NCBI GenBank assembly: GCA_028673005.1
Contig: CM054113.1
Coordinates: 44,396,834-44,460,833, forward strand
Reading direction: 5' to 3'
DNA: 64,000 nucleotides
From: Tanypteryx hageni
Lineage: Eukaryota; Arthropoda; Insecta; Odonata; Petaluridae
Every line of letters starts with the position of its first letter. Within the stretch, counting starts at the first letter, position 1. Below are positions 6,242 through 52,500 of the stretch, piece after piece. The position numbers were made by a program, and so were the translations under genes. The notes under the pieces were generated by a model, which was given only the letters and a program-made list of their open reading frames with translations, made no database searches and was not told where the DNA came from.

Positions 6242-7241
6242 CTAGATATACATTTTTATCCAATTGATTCGTGGCAAAATTAAGTTTGAAATATGTGACT
6301 GACATTTATCAGTACAACATACTTGAAAAACCCACCCAAAATGTGTAAATCATTCAGAATGCTCAAAATGTGTTTAAGATATTTAAGATGTGCAAGAAGA
6401 AACATTTTACTCGCTTGAGTTTTCCCGATGTGTATGTGATCTTGTTACATTCAGTCAAGATGAAGTTTCGCATGATGTTTTATCTGCCTCTGTATTGTTG
6501 CTCCTGTTTATGTAAAAGTGTTTTTGGCCGTAATTATTCGAAAAAACAATTTCTTAGGATATCAAATGTATGTACATCTGCGAGTAGAGGGGGATGTAGA
6601 CAACTCTTCCTCTCCTATTTTCACGTACTAATGAATTGCTTTCTAAACTTATATCTCCCCATCGGCACCATCATATTGATGAGCATTTTTCATCTTACAT
6701 GCCCTAGAAATTTTTAGTATTTTAGAAAACTTCGTTATTTGTAACGTCGAACATTGTGAATTGTGGAGTATTTTAATAATGTTGAGATAATTAATAGATT
6801 CTCAGGCTACAAACGCCTTGAACATTATTTTTTTGGATTCTGTTGGTAAATTCGTTCATAGATATGCTTTTTCTGAGATAAACGCTGATTTGTAGAAAAT
6901 TATCTCGAAATTTGTCAAGGAAAATGCGTAATTCCAAAGCATTATCGCCAAAGATATTCTTCCAGCATTTGAACGCTATTATAAAAACATATCGGAAGTA
7001 TTGCGTAATATATATATTTTCAATGACGGCCTTCAATTAAAATATTCGCTAAAAACGCAATTCAAAGAAAGTGACAAAAGTATTATATATAATTCGGTGA
7101 CAGCGGTTTAAAACAAGAGCTACAACCTCTCGCTGCGTAACCTTTATAAATAGTTTAAAAATAGTAAAATTAATGGTGTTTCGCGTATGCAAGGAAATAT
7201 ACGACGTTAGCGATCGAATCGCATGCACCTAACACACTCAC

Positions 7242-8033
7242 CTCGCTGATTTCAGGAGGAATGTCCAAATCTCGTCCTCCTTTGACTTTAAACCCCCACA
7301 GAAGACCCATTCTTTTAGAGAGTGTCACATCCATTTCAGTTATCCCATCCTTCTCCGACTTGACAACAATATCGTATTTGAACGGTTCTTCTTTCGGTTT
7401 AGGAGGTTCTTCCTCGGGTTGAGGTGGTTTTTCTTCGGCTTTGGGAGGCTCAGGCTGAGACCCTTCACCTTCTTCATCTGCCCTTTTCGAAATTTCGTCT
7501 TCCTCGGCGGTTTTGGAAAGTTCGATGGCAGTCACCTCGCTAGCTTCGGAAGATCGAACACCTTCCGCCTCGGATGCAGAATCTAAGCCAGCTTCTCGAG
7601 CTGGAATGGAATCCTCTTCGCTTCTGATGCTTCCTTCGCCATCTTGGTATTCGACGTCCTCGTATTCGTATTCGACCCTTTCTTCTTCTTCTTCTTCTTC
7701 TTCGAATGAGACTTCCCCTTCGTAAACTTCTTCAGTTTCCATGGTTACGCCTTCGGACTCGTGCGCAACCGTCTCTGCATGCGTAGATGTTTCCGCTACT
7801 TCGGACGTAGTGACTACACCAGGAGCTGTTACTTGTTCCGTAGTAGTGGTCGTTTCGGCAGTGGTAATTTCGGTAGTGGTCATTTCTCCTTCGTATTGGG
7901 GAATTTCAATTATGTCCTCTTGGGGCATATATATCTCCCCTTCCTCTGGCATGGTGATTTGACCGTCATCGGGGTTGAACTCTGTGTCTTCTTCTGGGGA
8001 ATGGACCGCGTTTTCGTCTTCCTGTGCATCCAT
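7242..8033 (-). CDS. PDZ-domain protein, exon 1 (acidic N-terminal region and first half of PDZ domain)
   Basis: The start ATG (8033-8031, reads MDAQEDEN) is the first ATG after an in-frame TGA at 8144-8142. The apparent longer frame upstream begins with TTG, not ATG. The 264 codons of this exon encode a strongly acidic, probably disordered region. It has a Thr-rich run (about residues 52-72), an eight-Glu run (about 113-121) and Pro/Glu/Lys repeats such as KPPQPEEEPPKPKEE (about 200-222). The first half of a PDZ domain begins near residue 225. Its ligand loop, LLWGFKVKGG, resembles the PWGF loop of the ZASP/Enigma PDZ group. The exon ends ATC AGC GAG|GTGAGT, a textbook donor, in phase 0 with 4295-4465. 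Such PDZ proteins scaffold C-terminal peptides of partners, often at cytoskeletal or membrane sites. The exact family is not identified. Confidence 0.83.
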
Positions 8034-9238
8034 CTGACGAGTTTTATGATTCAAAGAGAAGTGATGGGAATGAACGGAAAGGTTTCTTGAAAATATTTTC
8101 AATGCATACGTACATTTTTTATCTCGAAATTTTATTCTTCTTCATGTAAGATGGCGATTTCAATTGTTGATTTGATTAACGCGAAATGGTTTTGCTAAAA
8201 AATCTGAATTATTTCAACTATTCCATGAATTATCATCACATTTTGAAAAATTATGTTATTTCAAACCTGCAAAGTTTGTTTAAAGATAGTAAGAATTGAG
8301 AGCTGAGAAGTGAGAGCAGTATCTCAGTGGCGTGTTCACTTCATAAACTACAAATGGGCGCCTTGTTGTTGTAATTGAGGCAGCTTTGTAATTTAATGCC
8401 GTGTAGTTTTTTCATTGGAGAATGATAAGTTAATTACGAATAAAAGTGTTTAATGCGATCATCGTAACGCGCGTTTATAGAGCGCGAGTGGTGCTTGGAG
8501 ACCGTACCGAACATTCACTTTTGAAATCTCTTTCTTTGTTTATTTGAATTATCATACAGTTCCAATAAAATAATTTATATATATCATCAAAATGTATTTG
8601 TTTGCTTTCTCCAAACATCATCGGTAAAATTTATAGCTAGCAGTGTAATTGCTAATCCATAGCATTTTATAAAATAATTAGCGTTTTTGACAAAGTTTGT
8701 AACAACTTGTGACCATATTATATTTAATTTTATCATTTATTTTAGAGATACTGCATTTAATTCGTTCATAGTCGTTTATATAATCTCAACGATTTCATTT
8801 AAAAGAATAAATTTATCGTTCTAGGTATAATCTAAACTGATCGTTTTGCGTAGTGTACTCGCAAGTTTAACTAAGTTAATGTAACAATTGAAAACGCCAT
8901 TTTTCGATCGAAGTTTTGCGAGTTTAATTGGGTGTACCAAAATAGAATAACCAAAATATGGAATCTTTCACAAAAATACACGTGAACTTAAAGGCAAAAA
9001 ACGCCATGAGGTTACAGCACATACGTTATTAATTAATTGAAGCGTCAAATTCATTGTATATGCGTGCATTAATTAAAAATTGCTATTATTTTTGTGGCAA
9101 TTAGTAAAAACATGCATAGTTTCGACTTAATTATTTTCCATTTTATGAGAAGGGGAGCAGATTTTTTTCGTAGTTATTGAGGTTCAACAGAAATCGTTTT
9201 CAAATTATTGTTCCTAATGTCAAAATAGACGTCCAATC
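8034..9238. other. 5' flank and promoter side of the PDZ gene
   Basis: This stretch lies upstream of the minus-strand start codon. An in-frame stop at 8142 shows that coding does not continue here. A short GC-richer patch with GCGCGCGTTTATAGAGCGCG-like sequence (about 8468-8488) is a possible promoter-proximal element, but nothing specific can be supported. The rest is AT-rich without repeats I could identify. Confidence 0.4.
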
Positions 9239-9246
9239 TTCTAGAT

Positions 9247-10584
9247 CAGTGATTGTAGGAGAAAAACTCGTCGTGACCGTGTGTTCGGGCTCCTGACACG
9301 TTGCGGTGGTCGCATTCTTACATTTAGGGTCTAACAATAAGTTATATTTGGTATTTTACGTTAGGCACTTACAAAGTTTAATGAGATAAATATCAATACA
9401 CTGATATAAGAATTTTTGTATTGAATATTTAACATTGAGTATGAAAACATCTTAATAGAGAAAATATAAATAAGTAAAGATGGGGACTACGGCGGAATTG
9501 ATGTTAAATATAAATTTACTCCTTAACCGTAAAATTCAAAATTAGAGCCAGGCAAAGAAAAGGGGGGGAGGAAAGGAAGGAAAGGCAAAAGACAATAAAA
9601 ATTATAAACTTACAGGTTTAGGGGTTGTTACTCCACGCCAGGGACATGATGTCACTCACACATTCACTCACTCAATCGCACAAACACTAATCCTAAAGGT
9701 GGAAAAGGAAACGGGACCTGGTTTGCGAGAAATTACTCTGCGCCAGGGACCCAAAAAATCACACCGTTGCTAGAAGGTTTGTGAGTCAGTACGACTAAGC
9801 AACCACAGACACACGCACACGTACACGCCAAGAGATAAAGGGAACAAAGGGGGGGAAGGAAAGGGGAAATAATACTAGGTTTACGGGAGATTAAACCACG
9901 CCAGGGACCTAGTATCGCACACAGCGTACTAGTACGTTTACCTCCTCTTCAGAGATCTTGTGTGCGTGTATCGAGTGCTTGCGTGCGTGATTGTTTCGTC
10001 TGTTAGGTCCCTGTCGTTGCCGGAAGGCACATAAACCTACAGGCCGCTGTGTGCAATACGAGGTCCCTGGCGTGGTTTAATCTCCCGTAAACCTAGTATT
10101 ATTTCCCCTTTCCTTCCACCTTTATTTTTTCCCTTTACCTCTTGACGTGTGCGTGTGTTTGTGGTTGCTTATTAGGTCCCTGTCACGGTCGTACTGACTC
10201 ACAAACCTTCTAGCAACGGTGTGATTTTTTGGGCCCCTGGCGCCGAGTAATTTCTCGCAAACCCGGTCCCGTTTCCTTTTCCACCTTTAGGATTAGTGTT
10301 TGTGCGATTGAGTGAGTGAATGTGTGAGTGACATCAGGTCCCTGGCGTGGAGTAACAACCCCTAAACCTGTAAGTTTATAATTTTTATTGTCTTTTGCCT
10401 TTCCTTCCTTTCCTCCCCCCTTTTCTTTGTTTGTCTCTAATTTTGAATTTTACGGTTAAGAAGTTAATTTATATTTAACAGCGAAAATATACAAAAATCT
10501 GTCTATTAATTATTGCTATGTTTAAAATATAATTTTGCTGGTGGCCGCATTAAATTTTCCGTTGGCCGCACTCGAGAATCATTG
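9247..10584. mobile_element. hAT-type element with perfect 8-bp target duplication, containing a nested fold-back element
   Basis: The ends are CAGTGATTGTAGGAG on the left and CTCGAGAATCATTG on the right, matching as imperfect inverted termini. Both flanks carry TTCTAGAT (9239-9246 and 10585-10592). Near the ends are GCGGTGGTCGCA-like and mirrored TGGCCGCA sequences, typical of the GCGGCC-rich group of hAT MITEs. No coding frame is present. Most of its length is the separate inverted-repeat element at 9502-10480, so the original insertion was probably only about 360 bp. Confidence 0.78.
9502..10480. mobile_element. Fold-back element: two about 430-bp inverted arms built from repeated modules
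   Basis: The left arm (9502 to about 9929) and right arm (about 10050 to 10480) are inverted copies with an approximately 120-bp loop. The outermost sequence is TGTTAAATATAAATT. Within each arm a module recurs about three times: a GGTTTACGGG/GGTTTAGGGG-like block followed by (C)ACGCCAGGGAC. Purine tracts such as GGGGGGGAGGAAAGGAAGG (9564-9584) and a pyrimidine mirror near 10400 separate the modules. No coding capacity was seen. Modular long arms fit the fold-back class of DNA transposon. No target duplication was clear. Confidence 0.75.
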
Positions 10585-12421: not shown

Positions 12422-12699
12422 TATGCGATAAACCGATTAATTTTTAATATAAATAATAATAAATTGCGAGTTAATGTGTAGAATAATTATATTCGGATTA
12501 CATTTCGGCTTTAAACAAACCGATGATATCATGTATGCTGTGTCAACTAACAAATATTTATATGCGATGAACTGATTAATTTTTAATAGAAATAATAATA
12601 AATTACGAGTTAATGTATAGATTAATAATATTTGTATTACAATTTGGCTTTAAACAAACCGATGATATCATGTATGCTATGTCTACTAACAAATATTTA
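12422..12699. repeat. Tandem duplication, two 139-bp units
   Basis: The unit beginning TATGCGATAAACCGATTAAT at 12422 is repeated, starting TATGCGATGAACTGATTAAT at 12561. The copies stay in register through GGCTTTAAACAAACCGATGA and end in ACAAATATTTA. They differ by scattered substitutions, so the duplication is not very recent. Confidence 0.85.
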
Positions 12700-29699: not shown

Positions 29700-29792
29700 G
29701 TCCGCACAGCGTCCTGTCGGCATAAAGTCCGTTCGGCATACCGTCCGTCAGCATAACCTCCGTTCGGAATAACGTCCGTCGGCATACCGTCC
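29700..29792. repeat. Minisatellite of about 14-bp units, left part
   Basis: Repeats of the type GTCCGTCGGCATACC, with variants at each unit. The array stops at 29792, where the Transib element begins, and resumes at 33992 with the same unit. The element therefore inserted into this array. Confidence 0.85.
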
Positions 29793-31375: not shown

Positions 31376-33560
31376 ATGTCAGATGAGAGTATGTTCATCT
31401 CAAAGCGACGAGAATTGATAGACGTTCTTCAACAAAAGGGCACGATTCCTGAGCAGGTTCAGCATGTTTAGAATTATTTATTTGTGAAGCTGTCAATTCC
31501 TAATGATGCTGACCTGAGGCAAAAGGTACAGAATGTAGTCTGCATATTTTGCTACAAAGCAAGTGCAAAATAGAAAGCCTGCCATAGGAATAGGGAGTTT
31601 TTCTTGGACGCAAATGTAAAGTGGCTGAATGAAGAGCTATACTACCTCTACCCTTTGCTCTCACTCCCGCTTCATCAGATGGTGTCGTAGGCAGGCCCAA
31701 GAAGCCGTTTGCAGAGTGCTCTGACAGGGCCAAGCGTCTGAAGGTGGAGAAGCTGCGGCAATTTGGGACTGCTGAAGAACTGGGGTATGCCGCACATTTG
31801 AGTCTTCGTTCTGAGAAGAAAGAAGATGCCGCGAAGCTGCTGAAGGAGATGATCGATACGACCCCAGCGCGCGCGAAAAAGATTCGCACGGCATTCAGTG
31901 CGGCAAAGGCGGCGAAGTCCATCTCTCCCTACACGCCTGATGGAGCGCTCGCTCTTCTTATAGACTGTGATATGTCAAAGTAGACATACATGAATTTGAG
32001 GAAAGGGGCAAAGCAGAGAAATACCAACTTATACCCCACATATCATGCCTTAAAGGAGGTAAAGCAGCGCTGCTATCCGGAGCACTTGACATTTGCAGAG
32101 ACTCGAGAAGAAGCACAACTTCAAAGCCTCCTGGAAAACACTGCTCGTTGATTAGTTCAGTTTCAAGAGGTTGTTATGATTTCTGCGGACTCTCAGTGTA
32201 ATCTGGTCCTAAAGCTCCTTACCAAATGGAGATGCAATGGTAGCTCTGGCCAGAGCGTCTACAAACAGAGCTTTGCTGATGATAACGCCAGTGACAGCTC
32301 TCTGTTTGTTACTAGCTTCGTTCCGGTTCAACGTACCGACACTGACCAACGGGATGGCAAGAAGGTTATTATGTGGAAGAATCCCCGACCTTCGTCCACC
32401 CGGTACTGCAGGCCTATCCGCCTTCAATTTATGAAAGAGACGTCCGGAAGTACTATGGAGGAAAAGAAATACATTGATAGACAAATTGAGTCCCTGAAAC
32501 CAACAAAAATAAATATTCTTGATAGGTCCGTTTCTGTGGTGCACAAGCTCATTTTTACCATGGTTGATCAGAAGGTATAGGCCTCAATAACAGGAAGATC
32601 TTCACAATCATGTTACATCTGTGGCGCGAAACCTAAAGAAATGAACAAGCTTGACGCCATTGTACAGAGAGAAGTTTACTATTCCACGTTTGAGTTCGGA
32701 TTATCAACATTACATGCATGGATAAGAAGTATGAAGCTTGTTCTCCACATTTCATATCGCGTCGATATAAAGAAATGGCAGGTCAGTGGTAAAGCTGCGA
32801 AAGCCAAATTTGAAGCTCGGAAAGCCGCCATACAGGCAGAGTTCAAGAAGGAAGCGGGATTCAAATCTGATGTACAGTGGGCCGGAGAAAGCGGCTCGTC
32901 AAGCGAAGGCAATATGGCTAGACGCTTTTTTGCTAACCCAGCTTTGACAGCCAACATTACAGGGGTTGATGAGAGTTTCATCACTCGCCTCTCTGTGATC
33001 CTTTGTGCATTGTCCAGTGGGTACGAACTGGACCTCCACAAGTTTAAAGAGTACTGTCTGGAACCTGCCTGCTTATACGTCTCTCTCTCTACGAATGTTA
33101 CTACATGCCATCATCTTTACATAAAATACTGATCCATGCTTCAGAGATTGTATCTGCAGCGTTGCTTCCAATAGGAGAACTGCCGGAAGATGCGCAAGAG
33201 GCACAAAATAAATAATGCAAGAAGTACAGAGAACAGCACACGCGCAAGTGTTTCAGGTATATTTTCTATCGATAATTGTGTCTATCTGTTATTTTTAACC
33301 TTAGTTTTCCTCTCTCTTACACTTGAAGCACCGTTGATTCTTAAGCATGTTCTACTTATATAGGTCTGCAACTATGGAGGACGTTTTCCGGTGACTCTTA
33401 GCGGCATCGGACCCTGTTATTTCTGGAATAAGATATCCAACACCCAAAAAAGGAAAAGCATTGACGCTTGTTATCTTGGACCTTTTGGCTTCTGATCCTT
33501 CGGCGATGAGACAGGATAGAATATCAGATTGTGATTCAGCAGAAAGTGATTGACTGAAGA
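31376..33560 (+). pseudogene. Transib-family (RAG1-like) transposase pseudogene with an apparent intron
   Basis: A broken reading frame from ATG at 31376 covers, in order, an N-terminal region, a segment FSAAKAAKSISPYTPDGALALL (near 31900), and WRCNGSSGQSVYKQ (near 32230). A Cys-containing SCYICGAKP follows (near 32610), then the KIWQ-like ARRFFANPALTANITGVDE block (near 32920), and finally SSLHKILIHASEI...LLPIGELPEDAQEAQNK (33107-33210). These match the Transib/RAG1 catalytic core. The CNG should be CDG, so the first catalytic Asp appears to have become Asn. The last block should hold the catalytic Glu. Stops occur for example near 31468, 31982, 32578 and 33212, with a frame change near 33090. 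A GT..AG interval 33257-33363 joins in frame to SATMEDVFR and SDPVISGIRYPTPKK, the family's C-terminus, and looks like a true intron. Confidence 0.8.
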
Positions 33561-33991
33561 ACATTCTAGTGTTCTGCGGTATTTCCTTAAAATAAAAAAT
33601 TTCAATAAATGTCTCTTATGGCTTAGAAACGTTTCCATTCCATCTCAATCAATAGTCAACTCGCATAAAAAGCTTTTTGAGGTCGTGTTATCTTGTAGAC
33701 TCAAAACTCAACTAATGGTCCCATGGTGATTTTGAAAATACCAAAAAACATTCCTTTAACACTAATTATCACTAATTGCTTAAAACACACTTAATCTAGA
33801 ATGAATTATTTCAGTATTGCTCTTAGAGGTTTCCCGTACTGTTCTAGATTTTAAAATCACTCTGTAGTAATGTATATGCTTAAAGTGGCACTAAAAATCA
33901 TAACACACCTTCTAGCCACCAGTTAAAACGCATAACCCCGAATACATTCATTTCAGAATTTTTTCCGCTTTTTTTATTTTGTCCCACTGTG

Positions 33992-34050
33992 CGTCCGTCG
34001 GCATACCTTCCGACGGCATAACGTCCGTCGGCATACCTTCCGTCGGCATA
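33992..34050. repeat. Minisatellite of about 14-bp units, right part
   Basis: Continues the GTCCGTCGGCATACC array interrupted by the Transib element, starting with the duplicated CGTCC. The mirror copy is at 45431-45489. Confidence 0.85.
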
Positions 34051-36550
34051 CCGTCCGAGTACCACCATAGGTCGCTATGCAAGGATGTAAAGCGGAACGA
34101 TTTTGCTCAAACTGATAATTAGGGTGTAGTGACTTTTATTATTTATTTATTTCGTGTCTAAAAAGTAGAGAATTGGGCAGATGAAGTGCAGAGAGAGTAA
34201 AGAAAATGTATTTTCTTTGGATATAGTTTTATTCATAATCGTTATCTACTTCGGCGACTTTCGAGCACTTTAGTTAGGGTATCCGAAATATTTAATTGAT
34301 ACGTACTTTTGCAAATTCTCGTTCCTAGAAAAATATATCAAATTTCTTAAAATTTTGTGTTTAATTATTTGTTGATTTTGATTTTATATGTATTTGCAGT
34401 TTTTCCTTGGTAACGGTGATTAATTGCGACATCATCCTTCGATTTTGTAAACGCGTTATCCATATTTAAGTGTTTGGAACTTTCCAGCTTTTCGGGAAGC
34501 ATTTTTGCCACCAAATCAGTGTGTGGCAATAGCTAAGGCTTAGCTGAATTAGAAAATATTTTCGCATAGATTTTCTTGGTTGCTTATTGAGCGTAGAGTG
34601 TCATAGGCGCTAGAGAAACACTGCGTTATGTGTTTTAAATACTTCAATAAGATTCTCATTCATGGAAACTGCCAAAATATACATTTTGATTATTAAACTT
34701 GGTTTCTTCTGGATGTTTACTCTCGCTACGATAAACGCTACGTCCTTACTATAGATATGAAAATTAAACGCAACGAGACTAAATAAAAATTTAATAATTG
34801 ACTCCGTTTTCGAGTATAGGTCGTTATGAACTATCAAGCAGACGCCAACGATCGCATCATTTACGATAAATTCCGTCTCTGAAGTGACAGAAAGTTTTCT
34901 AATAATAGGAAAGATTAAATTTTCCACCTGTTTTCATATATACTCCCCAGGTCACAGTGCTTTAATCATTACAAGATTCTAGATTAACTATTAACTGTGT
35001 GTGTTTAATGACAACAATGAAACTTTTAGAATTTGGCTTTATGTAGATCTATCTTGTGTGGTTTAAATTTGACTAACATTTAAAAGTTGACCAGGATTTT
35101 TATATATGGTATAATATCCTTAGTGAGTTTTTTTGCTGACGTTGCATGGAGTCACATGATATTAAGAGTGCGCCATATTTGATTCGCATTATTTTAACAT
35201 GTGTTATAGTACAGCTACGAACTCAGGGCAGTCGTGCTCCTGAAAGAAGAAATTTTATTTTTGTCGAAGTGAGGAGTCGAATACATGCCAAAATATAGAG
35301 AATGTATGCTTAGAAAAAAACGTCAATTTTTCTGGACTACTTGAAAAATTATAAGGTGCATAGCATTTCCGTCCGCTTTAGCTTTAAGTAGATTTAAGCT
35401 CAAATTTGTTCAAGTATTTATGGAAGCAATTTGAGTGTTCTAAATTTGATTTGCCGATTTTTTTATAACAAATAAATTAAACAGATGGCTGTTTTTGTTC
35501 AAGATTTGACAAATTTAATGAATGTTTCGCTATTTTAATTTGCGCAGAAATTATCCGAAGAAGTTTTTGATATTTACTAAGTAATCAATTTCTATTAATG
35601 ATATTATATACATAATATCCTTATTCTGTACGTTGGTCCGCTGGAACGCTCTATAGAAATCCCCATAAGAGAACACTTAAAAATACCTTTTTTCACTTGC
35701 AGGCATTTTTCTTTTGAAAAATTAAATTAGAAGTAATTTACCTACGATCTTCGGACCTGGACCATTTTAAAGAAAAATAAACCTAGATTCTTATCATTTA
35801 CATTTGCCTTCGGTTCGATATCGCTCAAGTAATACGTTTAAATCACATTTATTGGAAAATTTTAAGCTTGTTAAAGATATGTTGTCTTGCCGACCATGTC
35901 ATTGTTAAACCTCGAGATTGTCTGGCGTCCTTATACTATATGCGAAAGGATAGTGTGCTTTGAATGCTTTAGTACGAGCGAGAGAAATATTTTTATTATA
36001 TAATTTTATCAGCCAGCAAAGCTCACACTCTCATTTTCGATTTCTATTAATACCCGTGCTTTTATAATTTATCCAAAATATTATGGCTAGCAATTTATGT
36101 AAGCAATCGTAAGTAACCAACTGTTAGTCAATATTCACCGTCTTTTTTGATGGGAAATCACGCTAGACATTATGATATATCCAAGACGGGAAAGGTGGAG
36201 TACTTTGTGCAGGATTTCAAACCGAAGATTTTACGAACTTTTACTTCAAGATAAATATATGCATCTCTTCGCCCATAGGCGGAGACGTTGACACCTTGGT
36301 GTGTTTTGCATTCTGGTGCTGGCAGCTACTTTTTCTTGTTAACGAGAGAGCTTTCTGACTTGAAAGGAAAACGTGTGGACAGACTAGGGTTATTAACGAT
36401 TAAATAAATAATAATAAAACTTTTCTTGCTCCAGTTTCTTTTAATTAAAATATTTTCCATTCATAGTGGCCTGCTATAGTTTCGTCGTAATACTTAGTTC
36501 GATCACCATTACTTGCAGCCCGCCATATATTTCGAAATGTATTTTGCGTA
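34051..36550. other. Unique-looking part of the left palindrome arm, no gene recognised
   Basis: No protein similarity is apparent. A 105-codon minus-strand frame (34610-34927) is open and starts MENLIFPIIRKLS. I do not recognise it, and its presence in both arms is due to the duplication, not selection. The mirror stretch is 42931-45430. Confidence 0.4.
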
Positions 36551-36690
36551 GGGATGTAAAGTAGGGAATAAACCCGGTTTTTCCCGCGAAAAAACAGGAA
36601 TTTTTGGGGGGAAAAACTAAATACTGGGAAAATTGGGAAAATAGAGAATTTTAAGTCAAGTTGCCTTTAAATCTATCTGCATCCCTAGGC
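36551..36690. repeat. MITE-like inverted repeat, left-arm copy
   Basis: TAGGGATGTAAAGTAGGG at the left and CTGCATCCCTA at the right are inverted termini. Inside are imperfect CCCGGTTTTTCCCGCG and TGGGAAAATTGGG runs of the kind seen in hAT-related MITEs. No clear 8-bp duplication is present. The mirror copy is at 42791-42930. Confidence 0.55.
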
Positions 36691-37083
36691 AGACCGTTGC
36701 AGAAATACATTAAATGCAAACAAAATTATTGTGGCATATTACCCTTATCAAGATAATAACTACTTCGTATGAAAATAACTTAACCCTTCCCATGTAGCTA
36801 AAATATACCAAAATTTTAATTCTTGTTCATTATTTTAGACATATATTTTTTTAAATTTTATATTTTTAGAGCTTATTCAGTCAATTACATACTTGAATGA
36901 AATAAAATTACTTTTATAACATACATATGATAAATATGTATATGCTAGTAATTACTCATGGACAATATTATGGTTTCACTGCCATGTTTTCAAATCTGGG
37001 GGTGTATCCCTGAATACATAATCTTTAATTAACAGTATAATATATACATTATTACATTCAATTATGCATGCATATATATACAT

Positions 37084-37347
37084 CTACCCCTCTTTAGTTA
37101 AATTCAAAGGTTTTTTGATTTGATAATCCTGAAGGAATCCAGATAGATGAAGGAAGGGCTTTTCCGTGCATGTCTTGCAAAAATAAATCATTCTCTTTCT
37201 CTTATTTCTTTTATGGCATACTACACATCTGACAGTCATTTTATTTCTTTCCCATAAAATGTGATTTTCCATCCAATCGCTCATCAGCTGGTCCTTGCAA
37301 TGGGCTACCTCAGTTTCTTCTCTGTGTACCTTCTCTTTGAACTTCAC
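37084..37347 (-). pseudogene. piggyBac transposase C-terminal zinc-binding tail, left-arm copy
   Basis: The 87-codon frame holds RCVVCHKRNKRKRMIYFCKT followed by CTEKPFLHLSGFLQDY. This CxxC...CxxC...H pattern is the cysteine-rich C-terminal domain of piggyBac transposases, which binds the terminal repeats. The DDD catalytic domain is not recognisable upstream, so only the tail survives. The frame itself has no internal stop. Confidence 0.78.
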
Positions 37348-38518
37348 ATTTTTGAATCATACTCGTATTTGACTGTAATATTGAATGTTAAAAATTGCAC
37401 TATATATAATAGAGAGTATGTTATGCTTTAACTAAAAATAATTCAGAAACACAAATAAGTAAATAAACAGTAAATTATAAAATATATATTTTTAAATGCA
37501 ATCAAGTTGTGAGACAAGTAGTACTTGACTAAGCCAGCCACATTTCAATAGTTTGTCCTGCATTCTGATGAATCCCAAAAATGTCCCCCATTTGCTCAAT
37601 TTTTCCTGCTTGTCTCGCATTTTCACAAACAATCACACTTGAAAGTTGAGCAAATCGTTTAAGCTCTTAGGTTTGTCACCTTCGCTCAATATTAGCCATC
37701 AGTTCAAATTACAATGTAAACTATTGATTTAATACATTGTCACAGGCAATAAATCACACACACAGTCATTCACCAAATATGGTGTGATCAGTGGTGCCAT
37801 CTGTCAGTCGTAATCCAAAGCTTTTAGTGTTGATATCCTGGACGGCAAAATATTCCGGTAATCTCACCTGAGGTAAATACCAAAACATCGTTGCCGAGAT
37901 CTAGTAATTTACTTTTGATATCTCACATACATTCCATGCTTATAATAGGAGAATTTATTACATTTCAGTTGTGAATATTAATATTTAAAAAGGCGAAGAA
38001 GATTTTTTTCTCTGGAAAATTTGAACCACTACCAGAGACACACGTCAAGTCATATAAGTAAGGAAATGACCCAAACCTCATTTTACATACCTTTCTCATT
38101 TTTTTGGAAATTTTCAAATTTAAAGCACTTTCTATTTTATTTAAAAACTTTCTCATTTAATTAAGGTGTCCCACATTTGCTACTTTTAAATTCTCGCATG
38201 TCCTGCATTGGCTACTTAAATACCTGGCTGCTTTCTACTTGACTCTTGTAAGATTATACATTCATTCCAATGTATTTAAATATTGTTAGACTAATAAATA
38301 TTATACAAATATGATATTTTCAAATATTTTCTATATTTATGCAGAATATACAATATTTAATGTTATTTTATCCCCAGAAAATGGTTTGGCCAAATCATCA
38401 GCATGAAAAAATTTTTCAACAGAGCACCATGGATTAAATAGGAAAAAGATAGCAATCTGCCATTATTGTAAAATTTGATACAATTTTCTAAATGCAACAA
38501 AGATGGAATTATTAACAG
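37348..38518. other. Inner part of the left palindrome arm, no gene recognised
   Basis: AT-rich. A 63-codon minus frame (37965-38156) is mirrored at 41325-41516, but I do not recognise it. Phrases such as GCAGGACATGCGAGAA and AGCAAATGTGGGACACC recur loosely and may belong to the piggyBac element or to another repeat. Confidence 0.35.
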
Positions 38519-38523
38519 ATATA

Positions 38524-38591
<68 letters not shown>
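38519..38591. repeat. AT microsatellite at inner left arm
   Basis: About 73 bases of AT with one G interruption near the start. It separates the arm from the terminal repeat of the central transposon. The counterpart in the right arm (40928-40971) is shorter. Confidence 0.95.
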
Positions 38592-38595
<4 letters not shown>

Positions 38596-38732
38596 GGTGA
38601 TCCTTATAATGGGGGGGGAAACAAACGTTTTATTTTGAATAGGGGCACCAGCCTATCTTGTTCCAATATTTAAAAAAATAATATTTCCAAAATTTGGTAA
38701 ATATTAGATGAAATTTAGAGGTTGCTACCAAA

Positions 38733-38734
<2 letters not shown>
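38592..38734 (-). repeat. Extra copy of the central transposon's 3' terminal repeat
   Basis: TTAGGGTGATCCTTATAATG through GGTTGCTACCAAAGT is the exact inverse of 40786-40929. It is a relative (about three quarters similar by eye) of the transposon's own 5' terminus, which starts at 38793. The transposon's 3' terminal repeat is therefore present on both sides of the palindrome centre. Confidence 0.9.

Positions 38735-38792
<58 letters not shown>
38735..38792. repeat. AT microsatellite between the extra terminal repeat and the central transposon
   Basis: About 58 bases of perfect AT. It marks the left inner boundary of the palindrome spacer. Confidence 0.95.
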
Positions 38793-38797
<5 letters not shown>

Positions 38798-40929
38798 GGT
38801 GGTCCTTATTTTTTGTTTTGGAAAACTGGAGGGGGGCATGTTTTGAATCTGTTCCATTATGAAAAAAAATAATTTTGGTAAAATTAGGTTAGTTTTGAAT
38901 AATATTTAGGGGTCGCTACCAAGATCTGCAAAATCGCAATATATCATAATGCTAAACATAGGTGCACTCATTTTTATATTAGTTTAAATTTTAAACTTAT
39001 TTGAATTGAATTGTGAATTGTAGATACTTAGTATTGAAAATTGTGATGCAGCACCCATTGGTCAATGTTACGCAATGTTGCAATAGATATAACCTTTCAG
39101 ATGTACCCCTCATAAATCCTGCATAAAGTCCACTTGCAAGAGCACTCTTTGTGTTATGAAATAGTCCATATCAGGTCTTTTGGAACAATCTAGAACTGTC
39201 CAGAGCGTTATAGAACCTTCATAAACAATCGTAAATCGTTCCTCAATTCGTGTAAGTCGCATTCAGCAAAGGGAAGCAACAGCTAAACAAATAATCTCTC
39301 AATTTAATCCAACAGTTCCGCTAGCTGTGCATTGAGATGGGAAGCTGCTGCCAGATCTTACTGGAAAGGAAGTAGTTGATCGTCTTCTTATTTTAGTCAC
39401 AGGTGATGGAGTAGAACAACTGCTCGGTGTTCCAAAAATTGCGGCTGGAACTGGATTGGAAATAGGCAAGGCTGTTGTTGAAACTTTGAAACTGTGGAAT
39501 CTAGCAGAGAAAGTGAAAGGAATGTGTTTTGACACTACTGCGTCAAATACTGGAAGAAAAAATGGAGCATGTCTTTGGATTGAACAGAAATTAGACAAGA
39601 ACCTTCTCTACACTCCCTGCAGGCACCACATATTGGAGCTGGTACTGGAAGCTGTCTTCTCTGTCATCGTAAGTCCATCAGCGAGCCTAGAAATACTAAT
39701 CTTCAAGCGATTTCAAGCTCATTGGGTGTCACTGGATAAGTTCGAATACAGAACTACACTTGATGATGAGTTTACTGCCAGTGCTGTTGCCGATATTAAA
39801 GACGAAATAATCACTTTTGCTACAGACCAACTGAACCAGCAGCAACCTTGCGATGATTACAGAGAACTCCTGGAAATCTCTATCACCTTTCTTGGAAGTG
39901 AACCTTCTCGTGGAATTAGATTTCTTGCTCCTGGTGTAATGCATATGGCTCGTTGGATGGCCAAAGCCATTTATGCTATCAAACTGTGGATGTTCAAAGG
40001 CCAGTTTCCATTGAAGACAAAAGAGGAAGCTGGGATAAGGGACATAGCAATTTTTGTTGTGAGATTCTATTTGAAGGCGTGGTTTCAAGCTGCACTTCCA
40101 ACTGCTGCGCCTATAAATGACCTGATGCTGTTGAAGAACCTCCAACAGTACAAGACTACAAACTCAATAGTTGCCAACGCTGCTCTGAAGAAGCTTGCTC
40201 GTCATCTGTGGTACCTCAGCGAAGAGCTGGTTGCCCTTGCTTTCTTTGATAAAAAAGTATCAATAGATAAAAAAGCCCAATTGATTCAAGCTCTCCAAAA
40301 TGATGGTAATGAAGACCACTCAAAGAGAGTGACTGTCGATCTGGATAGCATCTTGGAGAAAAATTTGGACTCTTTTGTGTTTTGAGGTTTTTCGACATAC
40401 TTGGTCTTGACTCGAAATTCACAGAATTGGATCCCGAACTCTGGGCTTCTGATAGGAACTACATTGCCACAGAAAACTGCATCAGGTCCATCAGTTGCAT
40501 TAACAATACGGCAGAACACGGAGTTGCCCTGATCGAGGAATACAATCGATTACACACCCAGGGTGAACAGCAAAAGCAATTTCTTCTGCAGGTAGTCAGC
40601 GATCATCGGAGGAGATATCCAGACTTTGCGAAGGGATCACTTGCCACAAACAATTAATATACCATTGTGTCAGTATTGTTAAGTTCATAATGTGACAAGG
40701 TAGCATGTAAATTACCAACTCTAAATTTTATATGCTTTGTACTGCATTGCATTTTGTTTGAAATAAAGAAAACTTAATGTTTCAAACTTTGGTAGCAACC
40801 TCTAAATTTCATCTAATATTTACCAAATTTTGGAAATATTATTTTTTTAAATATTGGAACAAGATAGGCTGGTGCCCCTATTCAAAATAAAACGTTTGTT
40901 TCCCCCCCCATTATAAGGATCACCCTAAT
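38793..40929 (+). mobile_element. DNA transposon in the palindrome centre, ends TTAGGGTG(G/A)TCCTTAT
   Basis: The left terminus ATTAGGGTGGTCCTTATT and the right terminus AAGGATCACCCTAAT are inverted. Both extend about 135 bases inward, ending in GGTCGCTACCAAG and CTTTGGTAGCAACC. Both ends abut AT microsatellites, so a TA-rich target duplication is masked. The inside carries a transposase-like gene (39303-40657). Length is about 2.1 kb, plausible for an autonomous element that has decayed. Confidence 0.75.
39303..40657 (+). pseudogene. hAT-like RNase H-fold transposase, nearly intact pseudogene
   Basis: The frame starts near FNPTVPLAVH, meets a TGA at 39333 where a Trp codon is expected, and continues DGKLLPDLTGKEVVDRL. 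It is then open from 39336 to 40384. Key blocks are MCFDTTASNTGRKNGACLW (catalytic-type Asp and Asn, as in hAT DxxxxN motifs), CRHHILELVLEAVF (CxxH block), GVMHMARWMAKAIY (an RW block) and HLWYLSEELVALAFF. A one-base frame change near 40382 leads into RFFDILGLDSKF, then a HGVALIEEYN segment and the end at 40657. I know this as a widespread transposon-type protein in invertebrates, but cannot name the superfamily with certainty. hAT-like is inferred from motif order. Only one stop and one shift suggest recent death. Confidence 0.7.
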
Positions 40930-42133
40930 ATATATATATATATATATATACATATATATATCTGTTAATAATTCCATCTTTGTTGCATTTAGAAAATTGT
41001 ATCAAATTTTACAATAATGGCAGATTGCTATCTTTTTCCTATTTAATCCATGGTGCTCTGTTGAAAAAATTTTTCATGCTGATGATTTAGGCCAAACCAT
41101 TTTCTGGGGATAAAATAACATTAAATATTGTATATTCTGCATAAATATAGAAAATATTTGAAAATATCATATTTGTATAATATTTATTAGTCTAACAATA
41201 TTTAAATACATTGGAATGAATGTATAATCTTACAAGAGTCAAGTAGAAAGCAGCCAGGTATTTAAGTAGCCAATGCAGGACATGCGAGAATTTAAAAGTA
41301 GCAAATGTGGGACACCTTAATTAAATGAGAAAGTTTTTAAATAAAATAGAAAGTGCTTTAAATTTGAAAATTTCCAAAAAAATGAGAAAGGTATGTAAAA
41401 TGAGGTTTGGGTCATTTCCTTACTTATATGACTTGACGTGTGTCTCTGGTAGTGGTTCAAATTTTCCAGAGAAAAAAATCTTCTTCGCCTTTTTAAATAT
41501 TAATATTCACAACTGAAATGTAATAAATTCTCCTATTATAAGCATGGAATGTATGTGAGATATCAAAAGTAAATTACTAGATCTCGGCAACGATGTTTTG
41601 GTATTTACCTCAGGTGAGATTACCGGAATATTTTGCCGTCCAGGATATCAACACTAAAAGCTTTGGATTACGACTGACAGATGGCACCACTGATCACACC
41701 ATATTTGGTGAATGACTGTGTGTGTGATTTATTGCCTGTGACAATGTATTAAATCAATAGTTTACATTGTAATTTGAACTGATGGCTAATATTGAGCGAA
41801 GGTGACAAACCTAAGAGCTTAAACGATTTGCTCAACTTTCAAGTGTGATTGTTTGTGAAAATGCGAGACAAGCAGGAAAAATTGAGCAAATGGGGGACAT
41901 TTTTGGGATTCATCAGAATGCAGGACAAACTATTGAAATGTGGCTGGCTTAGTCAAGTACTACTTGTCTCACAACTTGATTGCATTTAAAAATATATATT
42001 TTATAATTTACTGTTTATTTACTTATTTGTGTTTCTGAATTATTTTTAGTTAAAGCATAACATACTCTCTATTATATATAGTGCAATTTTTAACATTCAA
42101 TATTACAGTCAAATACGAGTATGATTCAAAAAT

Positions 42134-42397
42134 GTGAAGTTCAAAGAGAAGGTACACAGAGAAGAAACTGAGGTAGCCCATTGCAAGGACCAGCTGATGA
42201 GCGATTGGATGGAAAATCACATTTTATGGGAAAGAAATAAAATGACTGTCAGATGTGTAGTATGCCATAAAAGAAATAAGAGAAAGAGAATGATTTATTT
42301 TTGCAAGACATGCACGGAAAAGCCCTTCCTTCATCTATCTGGATTCCTTCAGGATTATCAAATCAAAAAACCTTTGAATTTAACTAAAGAGGGGTAG
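42134..42397 (+). pseudogene. piggyBac transposase C-terminal zinc-binding tail, right-arm copy
   Basis: Identical to the 87-codon frame at 37084-37347, inverted. It is a passenger of the palindrome with no independent significance. Confidence 0.75.
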
Positions 42398-42790
42398 ATG
42401 TATATATATGCATGCATAATTGAATGTAATAATGTATATATTATACTGTTAATTAAAGATTATGTATTCAGGGATACACCCCCAGATTTGAAAACATGGC
42501 AGTGAAACCATAATATTGTCCATGAGTAATTACTAGCATATACATATTTATCATATGTATGTTATAAAAGTAATTTTATTTCATTCAAGTATGTAATTGA
42601 CTGAATAAGCTCTAAAAATATAAAATTTAAAAAAATATATGTCTAAAATAATGAACAAGAATTAAAATTTTGGTATATTTTAGCTACATGGGAAGGGTTA
42701 AGTTATTTTCATACGAAGTAGTTATTATCTTGATAAGGGTAATATGCCACAATAATTTTGTTTGCATTTAATGTATTTCTGCAACGGTCT

Positions 42791-42930
42791 GCCTAGGGAT
42801 GCAGATAGATTTAAAGGCAACTTGACTTAAAATTCTCTATTTTCCCAATTTTCCCAGTATTTAGTTTTTCCCCCCAAAAATTCCTGTTTTTTCGCGGGAA
42901 AAACCGGGTTTATTCCCTACTTTACATCCC
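42791..42930. repeat. MITE-like inverted repeat, right-arm copy
   Basis: Mirror of 36551-36690. Confidence 0.55.
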
Positions 42931-45430
42931 TACGCAAAATACATTTCGAAATATATGGCGGGCTGCAAGTAATGGTGATCGAACTAAGTATTACGACGAA
43001 ACTATAGCAGGCCACTATGAATGGAAAATATTTTAATTAAAAGAAACTGGAGCAAGAAAAGTTTTATTATTATTTATTTAATCGTTAATAACCCTAGTCT
43101 GTCCACACGTTTTCCTTTCAAGTCAGAAAGCTCTCTCGTTAACAAGAAAAAGTAGCTGCCAGCACCAGAATGCAAAACACACCAAGGTGTCAACGTCTCC
43201 GCCTATGGGCGAAGAGATGCATATATTTATCTTGAAGTAAAAGTTCGTAAAATCTTCGGTTTGAAATCCTGCACAAAGTACTCCACCTTTCCCGTCTTGG
43301 ATATATCATAATGTCTAGCGTGATTTCCCATCAAAAAAGACGGTGAATATTGACTAACAGTTGGTTACTTACGATTGCTTACATAAATTGCTAGCCATAA
43401 TATTTTGGATAAATTATAAAAGCACGGGTATTAATAGAAATCGAAAATGAGAGTGTGAGCTTTGCTGGCTGATAAAATTATATAATAAAAATATTTCTCT
43501 CGCTCGTACTAAAGCATTCAAAGCACACTATCCTTTCGCATATAGTATAAGGACGCCAGACAATCTCGAGGTTTAACAATGACATGGTCGGCAAGACAAC
43601 ATATCTTTAACAAGCTTAAAATTTTCCAATAAATGTGATTTAAACGTATTACTTGAGCGATATCGAACCGAAGGCAAATGTAAATGATAAGAATCTAGGT
43701 TTATTTTTCTTTAAAATGGTCCAGGTCCGAAGATCGTAGGTAAATTACTTCTAATTTAATTTTTCAAAAGAAAAATGCCTGCAAGTGAAAAAAGGTATTT
43801 TTAAGTGTTCTCTTATGGGGATTTCTATAGAGCGTTCCAGCGGACCAACGTACAGAATAAGGATATTATGTATATAATATCATTAATAGAAATTGATTAC
43901 TTAGTAAATATCAAAAACTTCTTCGGATAATTTCTGCGCAAATTAAAATAGCGAAACATTCATTAAATTTGTCAAATCTTGAACAAAAACAGCCATCTGT
44001 TTAATTTATTTGTTATAAAAAAATCGGCAAATCAAATTTAGAACACTCAAATTGCTTCCATAAATACTTGAACAAATTTGAGCTTAAATCTACTTAAAGC
44101 TAAAGCGGACGGAAATGCTATGCACCTTATAATTTTTCAAGTAGTCCAGAAAAATTGACGTTTTTTTCTAAGCATACATTCTCTATATTTTGGCATGTAT
44201 TCGACTCCTCACTTCGACAAAAATAAAATTTCTTCTTTCAGGAGCACGACTGCCCTGAGTTCGTAGCTGTACTATAACACATGTTAAAATAATGCGAATC
44301 AAATATGGCGCACTCTTAATATCATGTGACTCCATGCAACGTCAGCAAAAAAACTCACTAAGGATATTATACCATATATAAAAATCCTGGTCAACTTTTA
44401 AATGTTAGTCAAATTTAAACCACACAAGATAGATCTACATAAAGCCAAATTCTAAAAGTTTCATTGTTGTCATTAAACACACACAGTTAATAGTTAATCT
44501 AGAATCTTGTAATGATTAAAGCACTGTGACCTGGGGAGTATATATGAAAACAGGTGGAAAATTTAATCTTTCCTATTATTAGAAAACTTTCTGTCACTTC
44601 AGAGACGGAATTTATCGTAAATGATGCGATCGTTGGCGTCTGCTTGATAGTTCATAACGACCTATACTCGAAAACGGAGTCAATTATTAAATTTTTATTT
44701 AGTCTCGTTGCGTTTAATTTTCATATCTATAGTAAGGACGTAGCGTTTATCGTAGCGAGAGTAAACATCCAGAAGAAACCAAGTTTAATAATCAAAATGT
44801 ATATTTTGGCAGTTTCCATGAATGAGAATCTTATTGAAGTATTTAAAACACATAACGCAGTGTTTCTCTAGCGCCTATGACACTCTACGCTCAATAAGCA
44901 ACCAAGAAAATCTATGCGAAAATATTTTCTAATTCAGCTAAGCCTTAGCTATTGCCACACACTGATTTGGTGGCAAAAATGCTTCCCGAAAAGCTGGAAA
45001 GTTCCAAACACTTAAATATGGATAACGCGTTTACAAAATCGAAGGATGATGTCGCAATTAATCACCGTTACCAAGGAAAAACTGCAAATACATATAAAAT
45101 CAAAATCAACAAATAATTAAACACAAAATTTTAAGAAATTTGATATATTTTTCTAGGAACGAGAATTTGCAAAAGTACGTATCAATTAAATATTTCGGAT
45201 ACCCTAACTAAAGTGCTCGAAAGTCGCCGAAGTAGATAACGATTATGAATAAAACTATATCCAAAGAAAATACATTTTCTTTACTCTCTCTGCACTTCAT
45301 CTGCCCAATTCTCTACTTTTTAGACACGAAATAAATAAATAATAAAAGTCACTACACCCTAATTATCAGTTTGAGCAAAATCGTTCCGCTTTACATCCTT
45401 GCATAGCGACCTATGGTGGTACTCGGACGG

Positions 45431-45489
45431 TATGCCGACGGAAGGTATGCCGACGGACGTTATGCCGTCGGAAGGTATGCCGACGGACG
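45431..45489. repeat. Minisatellite, right-arm copy
   Basis: Mirror of the array at 33992-34050, reading GGTATGCCGACGGAC-type units on this strand and ending at the Transib terminus. Confidence 0.85.
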
Positions 45490-46703
45490 CACAGTGGGAC
45501 AAAATAAAAAAAGCGGAAAAAATTCTGAAATGAATGTATTCGGGGTTATGCGTTTTAACTGGTGGCTAGAAGGTGTGTTATGATTTTTAGTGCCACTTTA
45601 AGCATATACATTACTACAGAGTGATTTTAAAATCTAGAACAGTACGGGAAACCTCTAAGAGCAATACTGAAATAATTCATTCTAGATTAAGTGTGTTTTA
45701 AGCAATTAGTGATAATTAGTGTTAAAGGAATGTTTTTTGGTATTTTCAAAATCACCATGGGACCATTAGTTGAGTTTTGAGTCTACAAGATAACACGACC
45801 TCAAAAAGCTTTTTATGCGAGTTGACTATTGATTGAGATGGAATGGAAACGTTTCTAAGCCATAAGAGACATTTATTGAAATTTTTTATTTTAAGGAAAT
45901 ACCGCAGAACACTAGAATGTTCTTCAGTCAATCACTTTCTGCTGAATCACAATCTGATATTCTATCCTGTCTCATCGCCGAAGGATCAGAAGCCAAAAGG
46001 TCCAAGATAACAAGCGTCAATGCTTTTCCTTTTTTGGGTGTTGGATATCTTATTCCAGAAATAACAGGGTCCGATGCCGCTAAGAGTCACCGGAAAACGT
46101 CCTCCATAGTTGCAGACCTATATAAGTAGAACATGCTTAAGAATCAACGGTGCTTCAAGTGTAAGAGAGAGGAAAACTAAGGTTAAAAATAACAGATAGA
46201 CACAATTATCGATAGAAAATATACCTGAAACACTTGCGCGTGTGCTGTTCTCTGTACTTCTTGCATTATTTATTTTGTGCCTCTTGCGCATCTTCCGGCA
46301 GTTCTCCTATTGGAAGCAACGCTGCAGATACAATCTCTGAAGCATGGATCAGTATTTTATGTAAAGATGATGGCATGTAGTAACATTCGTAGAGAGAGAG
46401 ACGTATAAGCAGGCAGGTTCCAGACAGTACTCTTTAAACTTGTGGAGGTCCAGTTCGTACCCACTGGACAATGCACAAAGGATCACAGAGAGGCGAGTGA
46501 TGAAACTCTCATCAACCCCTGTAATGTTGGCTGTCAAAGCTGGGTTAGCAAAAAAGCGTCTAGCCATATTGCCTTCGCTTGACGAGCCGCTTTCTCCGGC
46601 CCACTGTACATCAGATTTGAATCCCGCTTCCTTCTTGAACTCTGCCTGTATGGCGGCTTTCCGAGCTTCAAATTTGGCTTTCGCAGCTTTACCACTGACC
46701 TGC
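45490..46703 (-). pseudogene. Truncated second copy of the Transib 3' half
   Basis: Inverse of 32778-33991: it begins with the CACAGTGGGACAAAAT terminus and contains the C-terminal transposase exons, including the apparent intron. It is cut at 46703 inside the transposase. It has the right terminus only, so it could not be mobilised alone. Confidence 0.88.
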
Positions 46704-46763
46704 AGATTCAGATTCAAAACATGCCCCCTCCAGTTTTCCAAAACATAAAAAATAAGGACCACC

Positions 46764-46768
<5 letters not shown>
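46704..46768 (-). mobile_element. Fragment of the central transposon's 5' terminus at the outer palindrome breakpoint
   Basis: Read on the minus strand it starts ATTAGGGTGGTCCTTATT and runs through GGAAAACTGG and GGGGGCATGTTTTGAATCTG. It matches 38793-38852 apart from small length differences. It ends in a doubled AATCTG and passes directly into the Transib sequence of the right arm. Confidence 0.82.

Positions 46769-46861
<93 letters not shown>
46767..46861. repeat. AT then GT microsatellite
   Basis: About 66 bases of AT followed by about 28 bases of GT, directly outside the transposon end fragment. This matches the habit of that transposon family of ending in AT tracts. Confidence 0.93.
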
Positions 46862-46862
<1 letters not shown>

Positions 46863-47207
46863 TGAGGGAAGCCCAGCGGACACTTACCAAGTTGGGGACC
46901 AAGTTGGGGACCAAGTTGCCAGACTGCTGGGGGCGTCGAAGAGGCACGTAAAACACACGAGCACAAAAAAACACGCAAGCTTATCGGGCCTATGCCCTTC
47001 TTCAGCGAAAGAGTAACGTAAAGTAAGGGAGTGATGAGGGTGGGAGCAAGGCGTTGAAGGAAGCCCAGCGGACCCTTACCAAGTTGAGGACCAAGTTGGC
47101 AGGCTGCTGGGGACATCGAAGAGACAGAAAACACGCACACAAAAAAACACACGTAAGCTTTCGGGCATATGCCCTTCTTCAGCGACGGAGATATACTATA
47201 AATATAG
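46862..47207 (-). repeat. Tandem pair of about 170-190-bp units with a conserved stem-loop end
   Basis: Two units start near 46863 and 47053 with AAGCCCAGCGGAC...TTACCAAGTTG, and each ends CGGGCATATGCCCTTCTTCAGCG or a variant. Within the first unit the 15-base word GGGGACCAAGTTG is itself repeated. On the minus strand the ends read CTGAAGAAGGGC...GCCCGAAAG, a stem-loop between CTGAAGA and GAAA. Tandem terminal units with such a core are known from Penelope-like elements. Assignment here is tentative. Confidence 0.5.
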
Positions 47208-51177: not shown

Positions 51178-52500
51178 GAAGACAGATTAGAGATTGTGGG
51201 GAAAACCTAGGTAAAACAGGCATGTCCTCCCTAGTAAAACCCACGCAGGAAAACACCCACTGAGAAGGGGGGTGTGAAAAACCTGCGAAAACCCTAGATA
51301 GTGTACATATAATGATATAGTAATACAACATTAAATAGAAAGGAGTATGTACAGTAAGTCTTCGTATATACAGCATCGTTGTATACCGTCATAAACACTA
51401 TAACATAGTAGACACTAGACAATGAAAAGGTAACAGTCGAAGGAGGCGTACACTTTGCGAACTCGATAACCTGCAAAAAAAATAATTAATGTTAATTAAG
51501 TAAGGAAGAGTGAAGGAAGCCGTCTTGCAATTGGTAAGAAGAAAATGTTAAAGCTGACCTGAATTTTGGGCAGAGAACAGCAATTTAAAGTATTTATGTT
51601 TGAATATGTGGAGAGATGTTGCGTTTTGGAGGTCAGTAGGTAGGGCGTTCCAAAGTCTACAAGCTGTAACATGGAAGGATTTATTATAAATTTCCGTCCT
51701 GTGATGTGGGATCTGAAAGAGATTGGTGCCCCTAGTGTTGGCGTTGTGTACAGAGTTCATTTGGGAAAATTTGGAGTTCAGATACTGCGGGTAGGCGGGT
51801 GGCGAAAACGAATTACAGACAGAAAGAAATTCAAGGGTCGGTCAAGGAGTTTGAGAGTAGAAGGCGAAGCAGTGCACCAAATTGGGGAGCAGTAATCAAG
51901 AATGGGGAGAACGCAGCTAAAGAAAAAGGTACGAAGAGCGGAAATGTCAGTTATTTCTGTATAACGATAAATTAAACCTACTAACGACATAGCACGGGAG
52001 GAAATACTTTTAATATGATCTTGGAAAAGAAGCTTCGAGTCGAAGACTACTCCCAAGTCCCTTTGGTTGGTGACAGAGAGGATTACTTGACTAGAGAGCC
52101 TGTATGGATAGTTAAGAGGAGATCTGCGGAGTGTGTATGACAGTACTGTGGATTTAGACGGGTTAATTCGAAGGCGCCAGTGATTGGACCATGAAAGGAG
52201 CGCATCAAGAGCGCTTTGTAGGGCAGTGGAATCCTTATCTGAGTTAATTTGTCTGAAAATTTTACAGTCGTCTGCATATAGGAGGATGTTGCAAGATGTG
52301 GAAGAAATAGCTTCGACTAAATCATCAACAAATAACGCGAAAAGTAAAGGACCAATACACTACCCTGGGGAACGCCGGACGAGATGGGAGCAACTGAAGA
52401 TGAAAAGCCGTCAAGTATTACGCATTGTCGTCTATTTGTTAAGAATGAAGCCAAAAGGGAAAGGAAATTGCCGTGTATATTGTATCTGTTAGCCAATTTA
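50956..52500 (-). mobile_element. 5'-truncated LINE with reverse transcriptase core and GATA-type tail
   Basis: On the minus strand from about 52490, frames read NRRQCVILDGFSSSVAPISS, GVPQGSV (RT motif), then a one-base deletion near 52362. They continue LFVDDLVEAISS and ILLYADDCKIFRQ (catalytic YADD, about 52285). After that come NPSKSTVLS, LGVVFDSKLLFQDHI and a C-terminal segment near 51750-51550 (RLWNALPTDLQNATS). A 400-bp 3' region with CCCTAG and GGAAAACACCC words ends in (TATC)n at 50956-50978. Jockey/CR1-type by motif style. It includes an AT microsatellite at about 51139-51171. Confidence 0.82.

Follow-up and report, generated by a model that had tools for sequence, protein, structure and literature searches.

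How is a large palindrome born? The first origin of such structures is usually hidden by later change. A stretch of 64,000 nucleotides of the Tanypteryx hageni genome (Odonata, Petaluridae; assembly GCA_028673005.1, contig CM054113.1, positions 44,396,834-44,460,833), hereinafter the window, raises this question. An earlier note, made from the letters only, had described in it a giant palindrome with near-identical arms of about 5.9 kb around a 2-kb transposon spacer. We analyzed the window and searched the 1.68-Gb assembly (1,022 contigs, that of the window being designated C2). We consider it reasonably probable that a repair event at a DNA transposon, designated X, made a real inverted duplication in one step.

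The two arms are inverted with respect to each other, with 2,051 bp between them (Table 1). Specifically, BLAST of the window against itself gives two inverted matches, 32778-38552 against 46703-40928 (5,776 bp, 99.965% identity) and 38559-38734 against 40961-40786 (176 bp, 99.4%). Length and identity rule out a chance origin of the arm match. The longest inverted match elsewhere in the window is a shorter second inverted repeat (451 bp, 91%), formed by 9502-9940 and 10032-10480. Global alignment of the arms shows three differences, namely a 1-bp indel at 38391/41089, a substitution (A at 38411, T at 41069), and a 40-bp length difference in one (AT)n run. Thus, self-BLAST and global alignment reproduce the noted arms exactly. 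The rule that x maps to 79481-x agrees with the sum of the outer ends (32778+46703), and the mirror sum changes only past the indel and the microsatellite. These two had been noted as the only changes; both are borne out, but the A/T substitution had been overlooked. The window contains no N.

Most of the spacer is indeed X, but X ends beyond it. Among the best 40 of 717 candidates in the genome search, the 39 other high-scoring copies are 92-95% identical to 38795-40927, and 37 of them continue unbroken through 40785/40786, the inner boundary of the right arm. Therefore, X is 2,133 bp long and its final 142 bp lie inside the right arm. Nor is the transposon confined to the spacer, as had been thought: the left arm terminates inward in a truncated copy of this same X end, and a further remnant is found beyond the palindrome.

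The two remnants are tips of opposite ends of X. Reverse-complemented, the 142-bp tip in the left arm matches 40786-40927, the 3' end of the spacer X itself, without a single difference, while the 19 other fetched X copies differ from this end by 4-10% (one was compared over 81 bp only). The 58-bp tip beyond the right arm and the spacer X share a T6 run that all 19 other copies lack and a CATG that only L027 among them has. These comparisons point strongly to the same X copy as the spacer X for the 142-bp tip and moderately for the 58-bp tip, and the two tips are most likely the leftover ends of that copy. Between them, 1,933 of the 2,133 bp of the original X (90.6%) are gone, with both breakpoints near the tips. 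Insertion of X into an already existing palindrome was considered and rejected, because the inverted insert is flanked by tips resembling the same X.

The flanks indicate which of the two arms is new. Of six fetched copies of a Transib-type transposon, five (L003-L007) align unbroken across 32777/32778, at the outer end of the left arm, and the sixth (L008) lacks 32223-33459. In contrast, all five copies that cover the outer end of the right arm stop matching at 46703. This shows that the left arm still stands where it originally stood, and that the right arm is a new copy that ends at a breakpoint. Junction J1 lies at 38734|38735, where 1 bp (T) is common to both sides, and junction J2 at 46703|46704. 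The reverse complement of 38735-46703 reads as one stretch of 7,969 bp, composed of part of Transib, the arm, (AT)n, X, and (AT)n. Two junctions are therefore enough to turn a simple ancestor into the present locus, and the inverted duplication suggested by the earlier note can be specified as a two-breakpoint event.

Table 1. Features of the palindrome and its surroundings, in window coordinates.
Feature	Position	Strand	Remarks
Transib-type DNA transposon copy	31491..33993	+	Extent as matched by locus L003
Left arm	32778..38734	+	Native copy, 5,957 bp; derived 1-bp deletion at 38391
Repeat Y	36545..38505	+	Partly or largely matched at 9 other loci, 88-92%; used for polarizing arm differences
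(AT)n left of original X insertion	38519..38592	+	74 bp; right-arm counterpart 40928-40961, 34 bp
X remnant, 3'-terminal 142 bp	38593..38734	-	Outer end left; innermost part of left arm
(TA)n, start of inverted insert	38735..38794	.	Read as the (AT)n beyond the 5' end of X in the right flank
Complete transposon X, inverted copy	38795..40927	+	2,133 bp; last 142 bp are the inner end of the right arm
Broken transposase-like frame of X	39336..40657	+	Pieces 39336-40385 and 40349-40657, in different frames
Right arm	40786..46703	-	New copy, 5,918 bp; derived A-to-T at 41069 (left-arm plus strand)
5-bp insertion at J2	46704..46708	.	Duplicates adjoining X sequence, minus strand AATCTG AATCTG
X remnant, 5'-terminal 58 bp	46709..46766	-	Outer end right; just outside right arm
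Right side of original X insertion	46767..46862	.	(AT)n, then (TG)n

A plausible course of events can be read from these features. The ancestral order would have been Transib, arm, (AT)n, X on the minus strand, (AT)n(TG)n, and right flank. X would have been excised or broken on one chromatid, and only its tips of 142 bp and 58 bp would have been kept or recopied at the broken ends. A repair strand would then have re-entered the sister or the homologue in inverted orientation, and the self-complementary (AT)n tract may have been its point of entry. By copying X and then the arm, the strand would have inserted the inverted 7,969 bp, namely (TA)n, X, (AT)n, arm, and part of Transib, and the insert would have been end-joined to the right tip of X with the 5-bp insertion. 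The result would be two arm copies, which make the palindrome, and a copied X at its center. Here we infer that excision by transposase was the trigger, that the filler arose by template switching and not by capture of a fragment, and that the animal itself carries the structure.

This course of events resembles a known process. Tan et al. 2021 (PMC8277862) report animal terminal inverted repeat (TIR) transposons that were filled with nearby DNA during break repair, with 56.9% of unique cases lying at most 15 kb from their source. According to the same paper, the gap is expected to be larger, and its breakpoints to lie close to the tips, when excision is followed by abortive repair. The large gap and near-tip breakpoints of our locus are as expected for that route and thus favor excision or breakage of X. 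The mechanism that we think likeliest is aborted repair of the gap left when X was excised or broken, with filling of the Pack-TIR kind by template switching in inverted orientation or by capture. Capture of a fragment or fusion of sisters would give an identical product. In common with Pack-TIR gap filling as reported there, a TIR transposon is interrupted by nearby DNA, the product is single-copy, the parent lies within 15 kb, and no transposition of the product is needed. Both ends of one TIR copy flank the capture, as judged from the identity over 142 bp and from the shared T6 and CATG of the 58-bp tip with its two indels, and the parental copy is in cis, being the directly adjacent left arm. 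In contrast to the reported cases, the filler here is about 8 kb long, inverted, directly adjacent, and holds a full X, hence the palindrome, and the gap amounts to 91% of the element against a median of 4.6%. A Pack-TIR capture is defined as not itself a transposon; the insert here is mixed, consisting of the whole X and an arm made up to about 65% of named repeats. Microhomology, found at one or more breakpoints in 67.6% of the reported cases, amounts to 1 bp (T) at J1, and J2 has the 5-bp insertion. The stem "palindrom" is absent from the main text of PMC8277862, and in a literature search of partial coverage none of the titles and abstracts listed reported a palindrome of this form made by transposon gap filling. 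We regard the locus as a new variant of transposon gap filling, with an inverted, palindrome-making filler.

Gap repair of the P element is also named in PMC8277862. With abortive gap repair of P elements and Ac/Ds, our locus has in common that both tips are kept, the interior is lost, and a short insertion lies at the seal. That repair usually leaves an element with an internal deletion, or one with a short filler, and not 8 kb of inverted DNA. Palindromes are otherwise known in sex chromosomes and have been reported in some asexual animals (PMC5490193, PMC7953838). They resemble the present one in having inverted arms on one chromosome, which in sex chromosomes are near-identical. The palindromes in those reports are larger and gene-bearing. 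Unlike them, the left arm here is about 65% named repeats, with no gene recognized.

X itself was characterized from its copies and its broken frame. Both ends are complete in 13 of the 20 copies inspected; 9 of the 13 have an AT-only left flank, which gives little information on the length of a target duplication. A target duplication of 8 bp matches at 8/8 positions in L022 and at 7/8 in L010 and L023, the last beside AT. X thus makes 8-bp target duplications where they can be judged and is hAT-like on that point only, as no domain was recognized. The first frame piece of X has 683 homologous proteins; among the 120 listed, the named ones are from animals and none has a precomputed Pfam domain. 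Neither PDB nor, above the cut-off, Pfam yielded a match for X, seven relatives, or their profile, and UniRef names one relative DUF4371. Most X copies lie within (AT)n microsatellites, to judge from the AT-only left flanks, and this suggests a target preference for (AT)n.

Several observations weigh against the proposed repair at X. The ancestral state is reconstructed, and the locus is known from the assembled sequence of one genome. The frame of the spacer X is broken, so excision would need the transposase of another copy. Both sides of X at this locus are (AT)n, with which any even-length target duplication matches; because X lies inside (AT)n, its own target duplication is unverifiable here, and one X copy elsewhere (L016) shows no target duplication. 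The single base shared at J1 does not demand template switching. The cases of PMC8277862, with their small median gap, mostly fit internal breaks and not excision. Finally, the 58-bp tip differs from the spacer X by two indels, which exceeds the expectation from arm divergence, and the excess is significant under equal rates (below). One indel is an extra G in the spacer X that is derived relative to nearly all other copies, and the other concerns two bases beside the T run, whose polarity is not assignable.

The age of the palindrome bears on how these indels are read. Nine copies of repeat Y polarize the arm differences, and all nine agree that the left arm carries the derived state at 38391 (deletion) and the right arm that at 41069 (substitution). 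These two differences are at most 20 bp apart near the inner end, with one derived change in each arm. An origin of all small differences by error-prone synthesis of the new copy is rejected, because one of the two is derived in the native left arm. The arms differ by one substitution in about 5,880 bp, or 1.7e-4 per site (95% interval 4e-6 to 9.5e-4). At a mutation rate near 3e-9 per generation, the palindrome would be, very roughly, about 3e4 generations old. A single substitution across about 5.9 kb supports the "very recent" origin that had been proposed.

Alternatively, the palindrome could be old, with arms kept identical by arm-to-arm gene conversion. The arms show two changes over about 5.9 kb, and the 58-bp tip outside them differs from its copy by as many indels (P 5.6e-4 under equal rates; (AT)n lengths excluded); the (AT)n lengths also differ between the arms. 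However, the tip indels lie in a G run and beside a T run, both sites of common slippage or consensus error, and the equal-rate test fails if the two tips derive from different X copies. The excess could thus reflect gene conversion between the arms, a tip from another X copy, or mere slippage in G and T runs. The junctions also read cleanly, with no further rearrangement. We regard an old palindrome as unlikely, and gene conversion as weakly hinted at. Breakage and fusion of sister chromatids, to which we also give a low probability, would have joined a chromatid with a break inside X to a sister whose break lay in the (AT)n tract on the right of X; the bridge would then have broken in Transib and healed onto the right flank, which yields the same product by another order of breaks. 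J1 links the interior of X to (TA)n in the inverted sense that fusion predicts, and long (AT)n runs are prone to break. Yet fusion would require that, in the same lineage, a second break fell at a distance of only about 6 kb and the original right-hand fragment was captured again.

An artefact of assembly or library preparation, namely fold-back or inverted chimeric reads or a false duplication, could be excluded by reads alone, and the locus is known from the assembly; PMC7953838 warns that scaffolding errors can create false palindromes. Nor did the arm-stretch searches show, among the scored candidates, a further arm copy that might stand for a separate haplotig. However, an artefact would need two independent false junctions about 8 kb apart, both falling in transposon tips, and these tips are of the same X family, most likely of the same copy. 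Also against it are the asymmetric 2-kb spacer, the right flank joined without N, and the one derived change in each arm, though two haplotypes could produce the last. We thus consider an artefact rather improbable. Least probable is alternative transposition, with the ends of X inserted at 32778. Sister chromatid transposition of Ac/Ds is said to give flanking inverted duplications (PMC3744419), and it likewise yields a transposon with a flanking inverted duplication. In that paper, direct duplications have joints at exact transposon termini with 8-bp target duplications, and the same would be expected of inverted ones. Here, the breakpoints fall within X, 58 and 142 bp from its ends, and J2 carries the 5-bp insertion. 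This candidate was therefore rejected.

In composition the arms are mosaic, with several repeats as well as unmatched DNA; about 65% of the left arm is in named repeats, and no gene was recognized. The outer 1.2 kb, from 32778 on, is the 3' part of the Transib-type transposon. Residues 5-170 of the open reading frame 32581-33132 match residues 218-382 of PDB 6pqn, "DNA-mediated transposase" (E 3e-41), which we take to be HzTransib, and the outer part of the arms is accordingly assigned to a transposon with a Transib/RAG1-like transposase. Transib elements have CACWATG-type ends and a 5-bp target duplication. A 15-bp minisatellite of the CGTCCGTCGGCATAC type lies at 33992-34057, so in both arms, and also at 29710-29792, to their left; matches of the CGTCCGTCGGCATAC type recur as arrays on contigs C9, C4, C3, and C1. 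A high-copy repeat lies inside the left arm at 35570-35986. Stretch 33000-35000 is found in full length at the two arms only (best 40 of 267 candidates), as is stretch 34060-38518 (best 40 of 6,531). Two inverted insertions of one large transposon were rejected as an origin, because the searched arm stretches occur in full length only twice among the scored candidates and the composition is mosaic. An Rfam scan at gathering thresholds gave no match.

Elsewhere in the window, 12422-12699 holds a 139-bp unit in two tandem copies that are about 90% alike. Reverse-transcriptase fragments (Pfam RVT_1) lie at 51778-52359 on the minus strand and at 724-1284 on the plus strand, the latter under the curated cut-off. 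An acidic open frame of 323 amino acids (7170-8141, minus strand) found no homologue in our search and may hold an exon of a host gene.

Excision of cut-and-paste transposons in (AT)n may be a general birth route for large palindromes, an idea that we hold as tentative and rather doubtful. The self-complementary (AT)n would allow a repair strand to re-enter the sister inverted and to copy the transposon and then its flank, and thus a transposon-centered palindrome in one step. The idea draws on one locus: none of the 19 other fetched X loci, seen with 1.5 kb of flank per side, is a second case, and 18 of them have no inverted flanks, wider palindromes being beyond this reach. The remaining locus, L015 (listed with L038), has inverted flanks of 667 bp (91%) whose pieces lie 41 and 566 bp from X. 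It was rejected as a second X-centered palindrome, because the two pieces also have matches at 9 further fetched loci, of X or of the window, and are thus an interspersed repeat that happens to lie there in two orientations. Copies of this repeat, at 79-83%, also lie in the right flank of our palindrome (46769-47185).

At the present locus, both junctions are young enough to be read, and the birth of a palindrome can be tied to one transposon. If the general route is true, such births would leave a signature that can be searched for in any genome, namely one transposon tip at the inner edge of one arm and the other tip just outside the opposite arm. A search of long-read genomes for such asymmetric tips would show how common transposon gap repair is as a source of palindromes, and thus of inverted, hairpin-prone DNA.

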